Shown: positions 46,077 to 62,005 of the stretch, one piece after another
Numbering within the stretch: position 1 is the stretch's first letter
Layout of the letters: each line of letters opens with the position of its first letter
Origin: Bacillota bacterium
Lineage (GTDB): Bacteria > Bacillota_I > Bacilli_A > Izemoplasmatales > Hujiaoplasmataceae
Length of the DNA: 64,000 bases
Reading direction: 5' to 3'
Assembly: GCA_018818595.1 (NCBI GenBank)
Contig: JAHIRM010000036.1
Location: forward strand, 62,001 to 126,000
Program-made: the position numbers and the translations under genes
Notes under the pieces: model-generated
Seen by the model: the letters and a program-made list of their open reading frames with translations, nothing else
Database searches by the model: none
What the model was told of the DNA's origin: nothing

Positions 46077-49000
46077 TTAATACTTTTGAACAACTTCATA
46101 GGCTCTTGCGGCTTTTCCATCTCTTAAGGTTACTACGGTGGTATCTGTATATTTACTAAGTACTTCCATTTTTTGAGGAGGAGTCGCCAAAACAATTTGA
46201 ACAGGTAATTTTTGAATAAATTCCATCATAGATTTAATTCTTGATGTATCCATTTTATCAAAGACTTCATCAAATAAAATCAGTCCAATGGTATCTTGAA
46301 GATGGCCTCGTGAGGCTTGTTGGAACACACGTACAAAGGAAGCAATGGTCGCTACATAGAACGGAACTTGTGTTTCTCCACCTGATTTTTCTTTAAAGAC
46401 TTTTGAGTAAAGAATAATATCGCCAACTTCATTTCGAATCTTGATATCATAATCCATGTAGGTTCTGTAATCGGTGAATTTATTTATAGCTCCATTTGAA
46501 TTTAAATCTTCTGATGCTAAATTGATAAAGAGTTCTTCTAGTTGTCTTTGATATTTCATTTCGAAATCGTAGTTAAAGATTTCTCCACCTGTTTTCATCG
46601 ATTCATCGCTTAAAACCATGTCATAGTAATCGCCATATTCTTTGCTTTTTGGGAAGATGAATTCGTAAATGTCGTTTCCGAAATGAATGGTATGAAGAGT
46701 ATCATTTATTTTTTTAATTTCTTCTTGTGCCGACACAATGTAATTTCTTAATTTTGCAATAAAATCTTCTTTGAAGAGTTTCTCAGCAGCTTCTCTTGCT
46801 TCTCTCACTTTGCTTTCGTATTTTACGAGTTCAGATTTTACTAGTTTGTTCATTTCATCTAAGTAAGAATCCATATACTCTAAACCAAATTGATAACTTA
46901 AATTATAAAGGCTTGCATACTTAAACTGTTTTGTTTTTAAAGAATCTTCTAGATTTCTTAAATTCGATAACTCTACTTCAATTCTTGATTGATATTCTAT
47001 TACAACTTGTTTTGTGTCTTTTGTATTATCAAACTCTTGATGATATAACGCATAGGCTTGTTGGTCGATGGTTGGATTGCTTTGAGTTAATTCCAAACAT
47101 TCTTTTTTAAGAGTTGTAATTTTTTGTTCAAGATTTAATAAATCTTCTTGAGCCTTTAATTCATCTGAACTTAATTTACCGTTATCTTCGTATACTTTTC
47201 TTCGATTGGAATTAAATCCTCTCATTTCTTCTTTGATGTTTTCATATTCTACACGAATTTGATTGATGGTTTCCTTTGGTAAATTTTGTTTTTTCAAAAC
47301 CAAAGCTTTTCGTTTATCTTTTAGGACAGTAAGGGAGAAACTAGCTTGAATCATTTCAATTAATCCTTTTAAATTCAAACTTGAAATGGCGCTGTTTTCT
47401 TCTACAATCAAGTTGATTTGATTGGAAATTTCATTATATTTTTCTTTAGATGAAACAGCTTGTTTACGCCATTTTTCTAGTTGTTCTTCTTGTGCTTGTT
47501 TCCCAATAAATGGTTTTTCAGTATTCTTGTTTAGACTTCTGACTGTAAAGGAACGATAGACCATTCCCGATTTGGTAATAGCTTGAGGATGAGTTTCAAG
47601 TTCTAAGACATCTTTCACCATGATTAAGTTTCCGCAAACCATATTGATGTAATGTTTTGCGTCCACGTTTTCAGATGAAATGATGGAAGCTAAGGAGTCT
47701 TTTTGAACGTTGTCAAAATGTTGGATTTTTTTGGTATTTACAAGTCCAATTCCATAAATCGTTAATTGATCTTTTAATTTGTTATATACTTGGAGTGCCT
47801 CATCAAAGTAACGAGGTTCAACTATTAAATTAAATCGTTGTTGACCTAGATAATCTTCTACTGTGTTATGCCAAGAAGGATCTGTCACTTCTAGTAATTC
47901 TGCTAAAACATGGACAGAAATATCTACTCCATAGCGCTCTTTCACGCCAACTTCAATGCTTGATTGTAGTTTTTTCACCATTGGATTGTAACGCATTTTG
48001 TGATTTTCTAAATCTTTTAGAATTTGATAGATGTCATTAATTTCAGCAACAAGTGTTCTTCTTATTTCTTCTAATTTTCCTGATTCTTTGGTGTTTTCAT
48101 CGATAGTAGAAAGTAAATTTCTATCCATTTCAAGTAAATGAAGTTTTATTTTTTCATAGTTTGTTTCATTGATATTCATAAAATCAACTTTTGCTAAATC
48201 ATCATAGATCTTCTTTTTGTATTCGGATTTTAATTCAGCAATTACCGGTTTTACTTTATCGATTCTTCTGGTAAAGTATCGTTTAATTTCTTCTTGTTCA
48301 TCAATTTTTTGACCGAGACTTAAGATTTCTTTGTCGTAAAGTTCTCCCGCTTTGAATGTATCATCGTTTTGCAACATGGAATATATTTCTTTGCTTCTCT
48401 CGTCTAACAAATCGAGTTGATGATCTAAGTCTTGAATCATTTTTTTATTTTTATCTCTAGAAATATTGATTTTTTCTATGGCTTTGTTTTTGCGAGAAAT
48501 TTCTTCTTTTGTCGATTCCACATCGATCACTTTTAAGAAATACTCTAAGAATTGTTTTTGGTCTTGATTCTTTTGAATTTCTTCATACGTATCTTTGATT
48601 TCTTTTAAATCTAGGATTTTTTGTTTGATGATCTTTAAAGTGGCTTCTAGATCTCGATAAGCATGAATAGATTCCTTAATGGATTCTACATCTAAAGTCT
48701 TTTCTTCGAGCAAATAATGATAGATAAAATCTTTCACGTCCGCAATGGGTTTAAAAGCTAATGCTTTTGGAAGCAAAGAAAAGTATGTTTCATTGATTGA
48801 CCCAAATTTAGATCGAAATGCAAGTTTTGCTTCTCTTCGAGTTAGAAAAATTTTGTCAACTATTTTGGTTTTTTTGAAATTAACAGTTGTTAAAATTCTT
48901 CCTTCAGAATCCACAAACAATGACTCAATGATTTTTGACTCAAATTCATAGAAAATCACTTTAGGTGGTAGAACTTCTCCAAAGGCATCAATGACTGCTC

Positions 49001-49319
49001 CAACTGTAAAGTAAGTTTCTTTTGTTTCATCGTAAAATTCAAGAGCAACGTGACCTGTAATGTCCCCATCCCTTAGATATTCTTGATTGTCAATTCCAAG
49101 TTTGCATTTAACGTATCCTCTTAAATCCCGTTTGCTTTTTTCATTGGCTGCCAAATTAAAAATTTGATCTCCTGCAGTGATAACAAAAGCAATGGCATCC
49201 ACAATGGTTGATTTTCCAGTTGCGTTTTGTCCAGTAATTAAAGTGTTATTTTTAATGTAAATGGTTTCATTCGCAAAATAATGCCAATTGATTAAACGAA
49301 CTTTTGTGAGTTTTTTCAT
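46077..49319 (-). CDS. jetC: Wadjet/Mks SMC-like ATPase JetC (MukB-like)
   Basis: The 1080-residue SMC-type ATPase has an N-terminal ABC half with Walker A GQNATGKST (residues 30-38) after a VRLINWHYF start block. Two long coiled coils (about 225-450 and 610-880) flank a middle hinge-like region. The C-terminal half has the signature KSGGETQ near 979 and Walker B ILFDEVFDKMD near 1017. In Wadjet, JetC with JetA and JetB extrudes DNA loops, and JetD cuts plasmids. It starts 3 bases after jetB; no jetD follows. Confidence 0.88.
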   Translation of the reverse strand: MKKLTKVRLINWHYFANETIYIKNNTLITGQNATGKSTIVDAIAFVITAGDQIFNLAANEKSKRDLRGYVKCKLGIDNQEYLRDGDITGHVALEFYDETKETYFTVGAVIDAFGEVLPPKVIFYEFESKIIESLFVDSEGRILTTVNFKKTKIVDKIFLTRREAKLAFRSKFGSINETYFSLLPKALAFKPIADVKDFIYHYLLEEKTLDVESIKESIHAYRDLEATLKIIKQKILDLKEIKDTYEEIQKNQDQKQFLEYFLKVIDVESTKEEISRKNKAIEKINISRDKNKKMIQDLDHQLDLLDERSKEIYSMLQNDDTFKAGELYDKEILSLGQKIDEQEEIKRYFTRRIDKVKPVIAELKSEYKKKIYDDLAKVDFMNINETNYEKIKLHLLEMDRNLLSTIDENTKESGKLEEIRRTLVAEINDIYQILKDLENHKMRYNPMVKKLQSSIEVGVKERYGVDISVHVLAELLEVTDPSWHNTVEDYLGQQRFNLIVEPRYFDEALQVYNKLKDQLTIYGIGLVNTKKIQHFDNVQKDSLASIISSENVDAKHYINMVCGNLIMVKDVLELETHPQAITKSGMVYRSFTVRSLNKNTEKPFIGKQAQEEQLEKWRKQAVSSKEKYNEISNQINLIVEENSAISSLNLKGLIEMIQASFSLTVLKDKRKALVLKKQNLPKETINQIRVEYENIKEEMRGFNSNRRKVYEDNGKLSSDELKAQEDLLNLEQKITTLKKECLELTQSNPTIDQQAYALYHQEFDNTKDTKQVVIEYQSRIEVELSNLRNLEDSLKTKQFKYASLYNLSYQFGLEYMDSYLDEMNKLVKSELVKYESKVREAREAAEKLFKEDFIAKLRNYIVSAQEEIKKINDTLHTIHFGNDIYEFIFPKSKEYGDYYDMVLSDESMKTGGEIFNYDFEMKYQRQLEELFINLASEDLNSNGAINKFTDYRTYMDYDIKIRNEVGDIILYSKVFKEKSGGETQVPFYVATIASFVRVFQQASRGHLQDTIGLILFDEVFDKMDTSRIKSMMEFIQKLPVQIVLATPPQKMEVLSKYTDTTVVTLRDGKAARAYEVVQKY

Positions 49320-49322
49320 AAT

Positions 49323-49913
49323 TTATTCATCTCCCTCATCATTTCCAGATACTCTGTTAATGAGATCATATACATCGTTGATTTGATGTGTATTTATCGC
49401 TAATAGAATGGTTGGATAAATGACGACTTTTGTATTGCTTTGCGTAATATCACCAAGTGGTTCTATTAAATTAAACTTTTTATACATTCTAAGAATTGTT
49501 ACTAAATCTGTTTTGTTAATTTTCCGTTTTAGTTCTAAAGCATCATATTTTTGATGAATTTCGCTAATGGAGATAATGACATTATCATTAATCGATGTTT
49601 GGACTAAATGTTGATGATATAAAATCCGTAAAATAAGTAAGACGAGGGATTCTTCTTTTTTTAATTTTAACAAATTATGATGTTCTTTATGAACAAGCTG
49701 AATGGCCCCAGTTTCTCTATCAAGTAATATTTCAAAATTCATTACTTCAAAATATTCATCAAAATAATTTTTAAAACTTAAAACAAAGTAATATTGTTCC
49801 TTGTTATCTTTTTTATCTCTTGCTAAAAATCCTGTTGAAAGTAACTTATTACAGGTATCTGCGAAAAGTTGTTTTTGACCCATGTTTAAATTTTCATAGT
49901 TTTCTAAAATCAT
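49323..49913 (-). CDS. jetB: JetB, MukE-like subunit (DUF4194)
   Basis: The 196-residue protein lies between jetA and jetC and shows the winged-helix style of DUF4194/JetB proteins, with an N-terminal NMGQKQLFADTCNKLLSTGFLARD, EESLVLLILRILYHQHL near residue 90 and a second wing with KINKTDLVTILRMYKKFNLIEPLGD. Such proteins bridge the SMC heads to JetA. It starts 1 base after the jetA stop, so translation is coupled. Family membership is from context plus pattern. Confidence 0.82.
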   Translation of the reverse strand: MILENYENLNMGQKQLFADTCNKLLSTGFLARDKKDNKEQYYFVLSFKNYFDEYFEVMNFEILLDRETGAIQLVHKEHHNLLKLKKEESLVLLILRILYHQHLVQTSINDNVIISISEIHQKYDALELKRKINKTDLVTILRMYKKFNLIEPLGDITQSNTKVVIYPTILLAINTHQINDVYDLINRVSGNDEGDE

Positions 49914-49914
49914 G

Positions 49915-51309
49915 TTAATACCCCCTTATGATTTCAAAATCGGTTAATTGAAATCGCTTATGTTCTATCTCGTTTTCCAAAGGTTGGATGTAATAATTCA
50001 TTTCATCTCCTGCATACACTAAAATGTATAACAGTCTAAGTACCGCTTCATCGGACATATCACTTCGTAAAATCTCTGAAGCTTTAATGGTTGATTTCAC
50101 TAAGAAATAGTCGTTTAGATATTTTTTAATGACATCTTCACTGTAATTTGTTTCAAATTCCTTGTAAAAATCTTCTTGAAGTTGATTGGATGGTGTGATT
50201 TCATTTTCATAAAGAAACTGTGCATCAGCGTGTGAATAAGCGCCTCTTGGTGTATAAAGTGAATGTCCACTTATTTGTAAATTTGAAGAAAGAGTAAACA
50301 GTGGTTTGATCGCTTTAAGAGCTTGTTCTGATTTATGAATTTTAACTTTTGAAGCCGTATACCAAAGAATTCGGTTCAACTTTCCAATAATATTTTGATC
50401 ATCATTTAACAAGAATTTAATTTTTGCAATTGTTGTATTGACATATATTTTGTTTTTATTATCTATTTCATCAATGATAGAATTTATAGAATTATAAATA
50501 TCTATCATATCATCAATTTTTTTATTTGCTTTCACTCTTGCTAGTTCATAATTGTTATGAGATTTGATTAAATATTCTCTTGCAATTATTTCCATAATTA
50601 CGGGGTCTTGTTGATATTCTTCTAGTTTTTTAATGATTTGCATTTTGTATTTATTGACGTTATCGCTTGTTTTCAAGCGATAATATGCCTGATCTACTAG
50701 TTCGACCTTATAGTTAACTAACAAATGAATTAAATCTTTAATTTCTGAATTATCAATAATAGTTTTGATATAATACTTAAGTCTTGAATCTAATTTTCTG
50801 ATTTCTCTTACAAAAGCAATTGTATTCTTATAGATTTGATCAATTACCATTGCATATTCGACGTGTTCACTTGTAATCAAAGAGTAAACGGTGTAAATAT
50901 AACCTCTAAATTCATGGTTTTCTTCATCGTATCCATAAAACGTATCTTGAGAGATTGTTTTTAGCGCTTCAATAATCGTTATGGCATAATCTCTAAAGTT
51001 TAAAACTTCTACGTAATCATTGTTGACATCAATATCAATCCATTCACATTCTTCTAAACGTCTTAATATTTGATTCGCTTTATCTCTTATTGATGTTTCT
51101 TGATCAAAATCAGAATCTTCTCCTTCTTCCAAAGGATTCATTTCAAGATAATCCATGATTACTTGTTGTGCTATTTGTTTATCCATTCCTAAAATAGAGC
51201 CTTGTTCATAGGCTTTAAATATTTCAAATAATGAATTAACGTATAATTCTTGGTTTTTTCCAGATAATAAATTAAAAAACTTTTCCGGTATGATTTTAAA
51301 TAATTCCAT
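49915..51309 (-). CDS. jetA: JetA, kleisin-like subunit of a Wadjet/Mks complex (DUF5716)
   Basis: The 464 residues begin MELFKIIPEKFFNLLSGKNQ, then YVNSLFEIFKAYEQGSILGM, a start shared by Wadjet JetA-family proteins (former DUF5716). The protein is helical, with a coiled-coil-rich centre and a C-terminal SDEAVLRLLYILVYAGD block that may be the winged domain. It acts as the MukF-like kleisin linking JetB and the JetC heads. The ATG follows GAGGATG and the gene starts 17 bases after padR. Confidence 0.85.
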   Translation of the reverse strand: MELFKIIPEKFFNLLSGKNQELYVNSLFEIFKAYEQGSILGMDKQIAQQVIMDYLEMNPLEEGEDSDFDQETSIRDKANQILRRLEECEWIDIDVNNDYVEVLNFRDYAITIIEALKTISQDTFYGYDEENHEFRGYIYTVYSLITSEHVEYAMVIDQIYKNTIAFVREIRKLDSRLKYYIKTIIDNSEIKDLIHLLVNYKVELVDQAYYRLKTSDNVNKYKMQIIKKLEEYQQDPVIMEIIAREYLIKSHNNYELARVKANKKIDDMIDIYNSINSIIDEIDNKNKIYVNTTIAKIKFLLNDDQNIIGKLNRILWYTASKVKIHKSEQALKAIKPLFTLSSNLQISGHSLYTPRGAYSHADAQFLYENEITPSNQLQEDFYKEFETNYSEDVIKKYLNDYFLVKSTIKASEILRSDMSDEAVLRLLYILVYAGDEMNYYIQPLENEIEHKRFQLTDFEIIRGY

Positions 51310-51326
51310 CTTTTCACATCCTCACA

Positions 51327-51680
51327 TTATTTGTCTTCTCGTGAATATTCAAACCGACCACCAACGAGACTTGATAAAGTATTTTCAATCAATATCCAGT
51401 CTTTTCGAAACGATTTCAGTGTAGCAATACCATCGGGAGTAATTTGATAATAACGACGGCTCATGCCTTTTTTGTTTTTTTCTTTATAAGAAGAAATTTT
51501 GTCATCTTCTAAAAGTCTTTTTAATGCAAAATAAAGCGTAGCTTCCGTTAATTGAAAATGTTGGTCGCTTACGCTTTCTATAATTTTAGAAATTTCATAC
51601 CCATAACTATTGAATTTTGATAGAATGGACAAAATAATATAATCGGTAAATCCTCTTATGTATTCACCGCTATTCGTCAT
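51327..51680 (-). CDS. PadR-family transcriptional regulator
   Basis: The 117-residue protein has the PadR winged helix: DYIILSILSKFNSYGYEISKIIES, then QLTEATLYFALKRLLEDDKISSYKE and a RRYYQITPDGIATLK wing. A short helix after residue 95 should mediate dimer formation. It is first in the operon with jetA-B-C. A dyad with ATGTATA/TATACAT arms, the half-site type known for PadR proteins, lies just downstream of its promoter, so it likely represses itself and the jet genes. Confidence 0.9.
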   Translation of the reverse strand: MTNSGEYIRGFTDYIILSILSKFNSYGYEISKIIESVSDQHFQLTEATLYFALKRLLEDDKISSYKEKNKKGMSRRYYQITPDGIATLKSFRKDWILIENTLSSLVGGRFEYSREDK

Positions 51681-51710
51681 TATCTCACCCCCCTACACTA
51701 TATAATCACG

Positions 51711-51735
51711 TTATGTATATCGTGGTTATACATAA
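51711..51735. promoter_or_regulatory. Putative PadR operator
   Basis: The perfect inverted repeat TTATGTATA (51711-51719) and TATACATAA (51727-51735), with a 7-base centre, lies just downstream of the promoter and 30 bases before the padR start. PadR regulators are known to bind ATGTAT/ATACAT type dyads. Confidence 0.75.
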
Positions 51736-51744
51736 TCTGGTTAT

Positions 51745-51773
51745 ATTATAACTGATTAGGTATTGTTTGTAAA
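51745..51773 (-). promoter_or_regulatory. Sigma-A type promoter of padR-jetABC
   Basis: On the minus strand TTTACA (51768-51773), a 17-base spacer and perfect TATAAT (51745-51750). The predicted start lies at the edge of the PadR dyad. Confidence 0.8.
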
Positions 51774-52937: not shown

Positions 52938-53243
52938 ATGGGGAAATTTTGTTCAAATTGTGGTTCACCAGTGGATGAAAATCAAGACGTTTGTTTGAAT
53001 TGTGGGAAATCATTGAATTATTCTTCTAAACAAAAAAACGTAATGGTTGAAAAAGGTAATACTACTATATTTGGTGTTTTAGGATTTTTCATTCCATTGG
53101 CAGGTCTTATTTTATTTGTTCTTTGGAAAGATGAAAGACCAAAAGCAGGAAAAGCAGCCATAACCGGTGCTGTTATTGGATTTATTCTTGCTGTTTGTTT
53201 TGGAGTTTTACTTGCGATGGCGGCCGCTACTGCAGGAATGTAA
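52938..53243 (+). CDS. Zinc-ribbon membrane protein, paralogue 1
   Basis: The 101 residues have an N-terminal zinc ribbon (FCSNCGSPV...CLNCGKSL, four Cys) in the first 27 residues. After a linker comes the core GVLGFFIPLAGLILFVLWKD, then ERPKAGKAA and a second hydrophobic helix. This suggests a cytoplasmic zinc ribbon with two membrane helices. It is the first of three paralogues in tandem, each with the same core. GGAGG precedes the ATG. Function unknown. Confidence 0.8.
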   Translation: MGKFCSNCGSPVDENQDVCLNCGKSLNYSSKQKNVMVEKGNTTIFGVLGFFIPLAGLILFVLWKDERPKAGKAAITGAVIGFILAVCFGVLLAMAAATAGM

Positions 53244-53291
53244 CTTGTAAGATTTTGTTTTAATTAAAAATATATTTTAAGGAGAAAATAC

Positions 53292-53597
53292 ATGGGAAAT
53301 TATTGTCCAAAATGTGGTTCACAAGTCACTGAGAATCAAGATTTTTGTTTAAACTGTGGTAAAGCGTTGTCTCATGATTCAAATGATTCCTCTTCAGGTT
53401 ACAGTGTAAATGAAGGTAGTACCATTGGATTTGGAGTACTAGGTTTTTTCATTCCATTAGCTGGAATTATACTGTTTATCATTTGGAAGGACAAACGTCC
53501 TAAAGCATCAAAAAGCGCTGGTATTGGTGCTGTTATTGGTTTTGTTGGAGCGATTATTTATGGAATATTGATGTGGGAATTGATGTCTTCCTTATAA
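53292..53597 (+). CDS. Zinc-ribbon membrane protein, paralogue 2
   Basis: At 101 residues this copy has the same layout: zinc ribbon YCPKCGSQV...CLNCGKAL, then GFGVLGFFIPLAGIILFIIW, KDKRPKASKSA and a C-terminal helix. The ribbon and core are well conserved, while the linker and C-terminus differ from paralogue 1, so duplication is not very recent. It lies 48 bases after paralogue 1 with its own AGGAG site. Confidence 0.8.
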   Translation: MGNYCPKCGSQVTENQDFCLNCGKALSHDSNDSSSGYSVNEGSTIGFGVLGFFIPLAGIILFIIWKDKRPKASKSAGIGAVIGFVGAIIYGILMWELMSSL

Positions 53598-53641
53598 AAA
53601 ATATTTACATGTAATTATTATTCTTATTTAGGAGATGAATT

Positions 53642-53998
53642 ATGGCTAAATTTTGTTCAAATTGTGGATCTCCAGTAAATGAAGATCAAGATGTTTGTTT
53701 AAAATGCGGGAAATCATTAAACACTGTTTCAAAAAAAACTTATGTGGAAGAAGATTCCACTGCCATTTACGGCGTATTAGGTTTTTTTGTCCCACTGGTT
53801 GGGCTTATTTTGTTTCTTCTTTGGCAAGACGAGAGACCAAAAGCCGCAAAATCAGCTGGAAAAGGTGCTTTAATTAGCGTCATAATTGGATGTGCAGTTG
53901 GGCTTATTTATCTAATTATTTTCTTAATTATTATTTTGACTGTTCCAAGCGATTTTATAAGTAGTTTTTCACACTTATCAATGTATTTGTTGCATTAA
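53642..53998 (+). CDS. Zinc-ribbon membrane protein, paralogue 3
   Basis: This 118-residue copy has the ribbon FCSNCGSPV...CLKCGKSL, the core YGVLGFFVPLVGLILFLLWQD, ERPKAAKSA and then a longer hydrophobic C-terminus (IIGCAVGLIYLIIFLIIILTV) with a short extra tail. It is closest to paralogue 1 in the ribbon and to paralogue 2 after the core. The AGGAG site precedes the ATG. Confidence 0.8.
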   Translation: MAKFCSNCGSPVNEDQDVCLKCGKSLNTVSKKTYVEEDSTAIYGVLGFFVPLVGLILFLLWQDERPKAAKSAGKGALISVIIGCAVGLIYLIIFLIIILTVPSDFISSFSHLSMYLLH

Positions 53999-54017
53999 TG
54001 AATTATAGGAGGATTTT

Positions 54018-54332
54018 ATGACAAAAAGAAACCTTGGTACGATGGTACTTCTTTACTTTATTACTTTTGGAATTTATCCGCTTTATTGGTATATTAAATT
54101 TCAAATGGAATTAAAACAACAAACCAATGAAGGGTTTGGCGGTTTAGGGCATTTTCTTGCTACAGTTTTCACTTTCGGGATTTATGAAATTTACTGGCAA
54201 TACGCTGCAGGAAAACGTTTAGCAAAATTAGGGCTTGAAGACAAATCTACTGTGTACTTGATTGTTGGGATATTTCTACCTTTTCTATTAAATCCATTTT
54301 TAATGCAAGACCAAGTTAATTCTTTAACTTAA
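54018..54332 (+). CDS. DUF4234 domain membrane protein
   Basis: The 104 residues start with KRNLGTMVLLYFITFGIYPLYWYIKF, the DUF4234 pattern (a GIYxxYW turn between two membrane helices). The turn is repeated as TFGIYEIYWQYAAGKRL, followed by a third hydrophobic helix. It is 19 bases after the third zinc-ribbon gene with its own AGGAGG site, so it is the last gene of the cluster. Zinc-ribbon and DUF4234 domains are sometimes fused in other bacteria, which supports a shared but unknown role. Confidence 0.82.
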   Translation: MTKRNLGTMVLLYFITFGIYPLYWYIKFQMELKQQTNEGFGGLGHFLATVFTFGIYEIYWQYAAGKRLAKLGLEDKSTVYLIVGIFLPFLLNPFLMQDQVNSLT

Positions 54333-61381: not shown

Positions 61382-62005
61382 TTACCGTGATAAATAGAAA
61401 TTTGTTTTTTTTATTTCTGACATTTTTCCTGATTGTCCATGACCTGGATAAATTAAGGTCTGATTTGATATCTTTTCTTTTAATTTTAGAATAGAATCAT
61501 TCATCATTTTTTGATTTCCTGTTTTTAAATCGGTTCTTCCAATGCTATCGGTAAATAGTGTATCTCCAGAAAAAAGAAATTTATCGATTAAATAACAAGA
61601 AGATCCAATTGTATGCCCTGGTGTGTGAAGAAGCGTAATTTCTTGATCTTCAAACAAGATCTTGGAATTGTCTTGTAAATACTTCACTTCTTGTTCTGGC
61701 TTTAATGTAAAGCTAGAATGAAACGATTTCGCATAATTAAAGGATTCATCAAATAAATTTTGTTTATCGAGTTCATGAATATAGATAACAAACTTCGAAT
61801 GCTTTTGCAATAATTTAATGTCTCTTAAATGATCGAAATGTCCATGAGTTAATAATACCATTTGTAGTTCAAAATTAGACGTTGATAAATACTCAAGGAT
61901 TTGTGCACCGTTAAAACCTGGATCAATTACAATTGCCTTGTTTTTTTTCACAAGAACGTATGTGTTTTCGAATGCGATGTTTTGATTAAATACTTGAATT
62001 TTCAT
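61382..62005 (-). CDS. Metallo-beta-lactamase fold hydrolase (glyoxalase II-like)
   Basis: The 207 residues have the metal motif THGHFDHLRDI near residue 54, HTPGHTIGSSCYLI near 130 and FSGDTLFTDSIGRTDL near 150, with a C-terminal YPGHGQ. This is the small GloB-like/YqgX group, which hydrolyses thioesters such as S-lactoylglutathione analogues; the substrate is not certain. It overlaps the ROK kinase stop by 4 bases, the same pairing seen in Bacilli. Confidence 0.88.
   Translation of the reverse strand: MKIQVFNQNIAFENTYVLVKKNKAIVIDPGFNGAQILEYLSTSNFELQMVLLTHGHFDHLRDIKLLQKHSKFVIYIHELDKQNLFDESFNYAKSFHSSFTLKPEQEVKYLQDNSKILFEDQEITLLHTPGHTIGSSCYLIDKFLFSGDTLFTDSIGRTDLKTGNQKMMNDSILKLKEKISNQTLIYPGHGQSGKMSEIKKTNFYLSR

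Follow-up and report, generated by a model that had tools for sequence, protein, structure and literature searches.

A nuclease-free Wadjet core, JetABC, as the probable sole SMC complex of the Hujiaoplasmataceae

We analysed a 64,000-nucleotide stretch of DNA (the window; positions 62,001 to 126,000 of contig JAHIRM010000036.1, assembly GCA_018818595.1) from a Bacillota bacterium of the family Hujiaoplasmataceae, order Izemoplasmatales. It carries an operon for a PadR regulator and for JetA, JetB and JetC, the core subunits of a type I Wadjet system. Judged by gene content, this bacterium, which has no cell wall, and almost every member of its family have kept the loop-making part of Wadjet, while the cutting part, the nuclease JetD, is gone. 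We consider it probable that this nuclease-free JetABC is the sole structural maintenance of chromosomes (SMC) complex of the genome and acts as its chromosome condensin. SMC-ScpAB is regarded as the chromosome organiser of nearly all bacteria, and Wadjet as an accessory for defence. Here, however, is a family without SMC-ScpAB but with an intact nuclease-free Wadjet core, and several further families of the class show the same pattern. If our reading is true, whole bacterial families run their chromosomes on disarmed immune machinery.

The padR-jetABC operon and the missing nuclease

A check of the open reading frames (ORFs) placed padR, jetA, jetB and jetC in one minus-strand operon (window 46077-51680) with gaps of 17, 1 and 3 bases. 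Coordinates, gaps and model matches all agree with the operon proposed in a first-pass annotation of the window. Its features are as follows:

51327..51680, minus strand: PadR family regulator, 117 amino acids (PF03551, 3.8e-17)
49915..51309, minus strand: JetA kleisin, 464 amino acids (PF18982, 5.2e-75; PADLOC JetA1, 2e-107)
49323..49913, minus strand: JetB KITE subunit, 196 amino acids (PF13835, DUF4194, 3.4e-26; PADLOC JetB1, 9.8e-60)
46077..49319, minus strand: JetC SMC ATPase, 1080 amino acids (PADLOC JetC1, 3e-296 over 1-1071)
51745..51773, minus strand: putative operon promoter TTTACA-17-TATAAT, by consensus match only (11/12 consensus matches)
51700..51746, no strand assigned: periodic repeat array of 15 base pairs (bp), three or more units of about ATAANCANNTTATGT; it overlaps the transcription start and is probably the PadR operator

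The Pfam and PADLOC type I models cover JetA, JetB and JetC almost full length, and JetC additionally matches the Pfam models SbcC_Walker_B (1.3e-21) and AAA_29 (4.9e-17). By these hidden Markov models all three proteins fall in Wadjet type I families, and not outside the Jet and Mks families. JetC is not a canonical SMC protein: it scored 32.6 bits against SMC_prok_B, for which the cut-off is 567. JetB exceeded the cut-off for DUF4194 and stayed below that for MksE (23 bits, cut-off 27). A profile of 14 JetC proteins aligned end to end with the solved JetC chains 9qxt, 8as8 and 8dk2, and the Walker A, SGGE signature and FDE Walker B residues were invariant in 14 of 14 diverse JetC proteins. 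These motifs, together with the strong model matches, uphold the earlier view that the subunits are intact.

We then asked where JetD is. As had been claimed, it is not in the window: a profile built from 13 JetD proteins found no match among the window ORFs. With the JetD_C model (PF09983) we found no jetD elsewhere in the genome, which spans 1.87 megabases (Mb) and is 95% complete; the N-terminal JetD domain, DUF3322, was not searched. The same model had no match in any of 90 genomes of the Izemoplasmatales, comprising 34 Hujiaoplasmataceae (f1), 49 Izemoplasmataceae (f2) and 7 genomes of family f3. The negative result does not stem from an insensitive model, because JetD_C detects JetD elsewhere in the class (26 matches over cut-off), where JetD lay directly behind JetC in 9 of 9 JetD-bearing JetABC loci examined. 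An unlinked JetD, sought with JetD_C in the genome itself, the order and the class, was therefore rejected for the order, and the locus is correctly described as an intact JetABC lacking JetD. As the searches for JetD came up empty, we advise against classing the operon as Wadjet defence. Annotation tools would label such operons as defence, as PADLOC matches all three subunits, though they are probably not.

It could be argued that JetABC still defends the cell against plasmids or phages by activating an unlinked or unrecognised nuclease, and the first-pass annotation had offered a plasmid restrictor of this kind. All three subunits do match defence-system models, and JetD_C was the only nuclease model searched genome-wide. 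The absence of JetD_C from all 90 genomes and the adjacency of JetD to JetC in the nine loci nevertheless tell against it. So does the distribution: defence genes are patchy, whereas this operon is near-universal in its family, sits in one fixed housekeeping position and has no conserved partner gene. We regard this explanation as improbable.

Distribution of JetABC and SMC-ScpAB

JetA was present in 30 of the 34 Hujiaoplasmataceae and in all seven f3 genomes, and in none of the 49 Izemoplasmataceae, which include complete genomes. JetB was found in the same genomes, as was AAA_29 of the JetC type (E about 1e-18). Among the four Hujiaoplasmataceae without JetA, one has JetB (G016), one a partial JetC (G022), and two are drafts of at least 200 contigs (G014, G020).

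The canonical complex is missing from the order. With working controls, ScpA was found in 0 of 90 genomes, ScpB exceeded its cut-off in none, and SMC did so in one, G076. Because ScpA and ScpB were not found and SMC occurred only in G076, the genomes of f1 and f3 show no SMC complex other than nuclease-free JetABC. The G076 protein (locus L035, 1006 bits), the one canonical SMC of full length that turned up in the order, lies on a contig of 4576 bases (C29) with little else, and is probably contamination of the draft genome. A hidden SMC-ScpAB was thus rejected for the order on three models, with the lone SMC on the 4.6 kb contig read as contamination. SMC-like candidate ORFs in the Izemoplasmataceae turned out to be an SbcC-like protein and a coiled-coil lipoprotein.

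We also compared the two systems across the class, in 395 genomes that are related to one another, so that the counts are not independent. JetA and ScpA occurred together in 13 genomes, JetA without ScpA in 105, ScpA without JetA in 169, and neither in 108 (Fisher p 2e-21, a value overstated by kinship). ScpA was absent from 97 of the 99 genomes with JetA and no JetD, and present in 11 of the 19 with both JetA and JetD. No SMC exceeded the cut-off in 47 sampled genomes outside the order that have JetA and lack ScpA.

The sequence evidence for the family therefore comprises intact subunits, no detected JetD, no detected SMC-ScpAB, near-universal presence and a fixed position. From this distribution and context we infer loop extrusion, a chromosomal role and autoregulation. 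The JetC motor, JetA kleisin and JetB KITE subunit would make up a complete SMC complex that works without JetD. JetA and JetB would bridge JetC dimers, and ATP would drive extrusion of DNA loops, a mechanism demonstrated in other SMC complexes and proposed for Wadjet. With JetD missing, the closing of a circle would lead to no cut, and the motor could serve the chromosome. JetABC would then take the housekeeping job of SMC-ScpAB: compacting the chromosome and helping in its segregation. Among the three functions offered in the first-pass annotation, that of chromosome organiser is the best supported, by the family-wide operon, its housekeeping surroundings and the missing SMC-ScpAB.

Several observations weigh against this reading. 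The Izemoplasmataceae have neither complex: we found no JetA, JetB, ScpA, ScpB or JetC-grade AAA_29 in them, and SMC only on the G076 contig. SMC was likewise absent from 32 of 33 sampled class genomes with neither ScpA nor JetA. As that family and many class genomes have neither complex, JetABC is not indispensable after SMC loss, nor does SMC loss alone explain why JetABC was retained. In addition, Haloplasma-type genomes (f10) hold SMC-ScpAB, JetABCD and nuclease-free JetABC together, so the nuclease-free complex can have a role beside SMC; this coexistence is possibly an intermediate state with both kinds.

The Izemoplasmataceae (G034-G082, for example the complete genome G079, Xianfuyuplasma coldseepsis zrk13) have genomes of 1-2 Mb without an SMC-type condensin detectable by the models used, and in families f7, f9, f16 and f18 many genomes with neither ScpA nor JetA resemble them. 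In f10, the genomes that hold loci L156-L163 (G096, G117, G126, G134 and G142) combine SMC-ScpAB with nuclease-free JetABC, and several of these genomes also have JetABCD.

Restriction might also proceed without a nuclease, if JetABC extruded small circular DNA and then silenced or mis-segregated it uncut. Wadjet cores sense small circular DNA through extrusion (PMC10586767), and the core here is intact. This explanation leaves both the absence of ScpA from nearly all genomes with JetA and no JetD and the vertical, housekeeping pattern of the operon unaccounted for, and we think it very unlikely. The complex might instead serve as an auxiliary factor in repairing DNA or restarting replication, apart from bulk chromosome organisation. 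RecN and SbcC are examples of SMC-like proteins with repair functions, and the coexistence with SMC in f10 suggests that auxiliary roles exist. Proteins of RecN size and SbcC-like proteins are present in the order anyway, however, and the association with the absence of SMC-ScpAB is again left unexplained; we give this role little credence. That the operon is a decaying Wadjet remnant, as the loss of JetD from the whole order might suggest, is scarcely credible, as the three genes retain their full length, the catalytic motifs do not vary, internal stops occur in just one JetA found in the order (G007), and identity across the family, about 65-70%, exceeds that of RsmE and MtaB.

Related complexes and evolutionary history

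The condensin role that we favour for nuclease-free JetABC can be set beside known complexes. Type I Wadjet (JetABCD, EptABCD or MksBEFG) shares with it the JetA, JetB and JetC families, the order A-B-C, the subunit lengths and the end-to-end JetC match. It differs in that JetD is here missing from the operon, the genome and the order, and in the fixed housekeeping location, the near-universal presence and the PadR gene and repeat array in front of the operon.

Published precedents support a chromosomal role. In Pseudomonas aeruginosa the chromosome is acted on by MksBEF, which is believed to correspond to JetABCD without JetD, and in enterobacteria MukBEF took the place of SMC-ScpAB, so that a complex other than SMC-ScpAB is the sole chromosome condensin there (PMC10586767). 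Like JetABC, MksBEF and MukBEF are built from a kleisin, a KITE and an SMC subunit and include no nuclease, and MukBEF shares the proposed role of sole condensin in place of SMC-ScpAB. MksBEF differs in its KITE subunit, given the scores of JetB against the MksE and DUF4194 models. A further difference is that SMC-ScpAB is missing here, whereas P. aeruginosa has it. The MukBEF subunits belong to other protein families, and the JetC profile matches MukB heads only partially and more weakly. With SMC-ScpAB, JetABC would share the cellular role, but its subunits are all of other families.

We next considered how JetABC came to stand alone. In a JetA tree built with a careful method, f1, f3 and f22 (probably Anaeroplasmataceae) form one clade (100/100), with f3 beside f1 (86/83). 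The nuclease-free JetA proteins of f12 lie outside this clade, among copies that are JetD-bearing or accompanied by SMC, and nuclease-free, SMC-less JetABC thus arose at least twice by this tree. A quick JetC tree, which included long branches, forced five changes. Within f1, JetC distances track those of DnaJ (r 0.88), and conservation is higher in JetABC than in the neighbouring MtaB and RsmE. Anaeroplasma is among the relatives, at about 43-48% identity. Taken together, the tree placement, the match of JetC to DnaJ distances and the conservation of JetABC speak for vertical inheritance in f1 and f3.

There is roughly an even chance, in our estimate, that in at least two lineages of Bacilli (the f1, f3 and f22 clade, and f12, which includes a phytoplasma) a JetABC of defence type shed its nuclease and took over as sole chromosome condensin in genomes that lost SMC-ScpAB. 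Two genomes, G412 (f22) and G224, each carry a JetABCD and a nuclease-free JetABC, which fall in different clades. We found no description of JetABC replacing SMC-ScpAB in Bacilli or Mollicutes in the literature searched, which took in no preprints and few subscription papers. The proposed origin of chromosome condensins from defence complexes like Wadjet becomes testable in cultured organisms with complete genomes.

Two observations on subunits belong here. The JetB N-terminus, the region that contacts JetD, is shorter in f1, f3, f22 and others. As a hallmark of nuclease-free complexes its loss is only suggestive, since the nuclease-free proteins of f12 and f10 retain the extension and start codons are uncertain. 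In the phytoplasma G426 (0.75 Mb, f12) we observed a full-length, diverged JetA (L141:7118-8491); jetB and jetC are not adjacent to it, and the SMC search returned no JetC-sized SMC-like frame.

Regulation and gene neighbourhood

At each of the 18 family loci padR is the gene immediately before jetA; no PadR was detected at the loci of f3 and f22. The repeat array directly follows the -10 box of the padR-jetABC promoter. Its region matches itself at 0.60 at a lag of 15, against 0.25-0.43 at other lags, and contains a 20-nt inverted repeat that is 85% complementary. The array pattern is unique within the window (expected 0.01), and the 15-bp spacing of ATAA is kept in 18 of 18 family loci, in most of which hexamers like TTTACA and TATAAT recur upstream of padR. 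The array is probably the PadR operator. PadR, as the first gene of the operon, would limit the amount of the complex by binding there, over the transcription start, a negative autoregulation that appears particular to the family. The tandem layout is unusual for a PadR operator.

The jetABC locus is not a defence island: the operon stands among housekeeping genes. At most of the 18 family loci, that of the window among them, the genes follow with local variation the layout dnaK-dnaJ-(radical SAM gene)-padR-jetABC-(thioredoxin-like lipoprotein gene)-rsmE-mtaB; in the window hrcA and grpE precede dnaK. In f3 the operon lies near dnaJ at two of three loci. Farther out the window holds era, phoH, dnaG, sigA, a pair of topoisomerase subunit genes, recJ, rel and hisS. 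A PADLOC scan of ten large window proteins gave a single match, on the Rel protein. The thioredoxin-like gene had been credited with its own promoter; we found none in the 66 bases that follow JetC, and shuffled sequences give promoter-like matches as often as the region does.

A comparison of neighbours found no gene conserved beside the nuclease-free operon across families, which goes against the suggestion of a defence system with a new effector. A conserved effector after JetC was rejected, as the downstream genes vary by family (SepF, a sugar nucleotidyltransferase, a protein of phosphotransferase system enzyme I type, a C1-like peptidase, an acyltransferase and GGGtGRT).

At an f22 locus, the cell-division gene sepF (L146:12332-12676) overlaps the end of jetC by 4 bases, an arrangement that suits a link with cell division. 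Genes of similar size to sepF (110-118 amino acids) follow jetC at L145, L152 and L154. Finally, on the opposite strand of the window, between dnaJ and the radical SAM gene (52938-54332), lie three adjacent paralogous genes, whose small products begin with a CxxC zinc ribbon and contain membrane segments, and a fourth gene for another small membrane protein.

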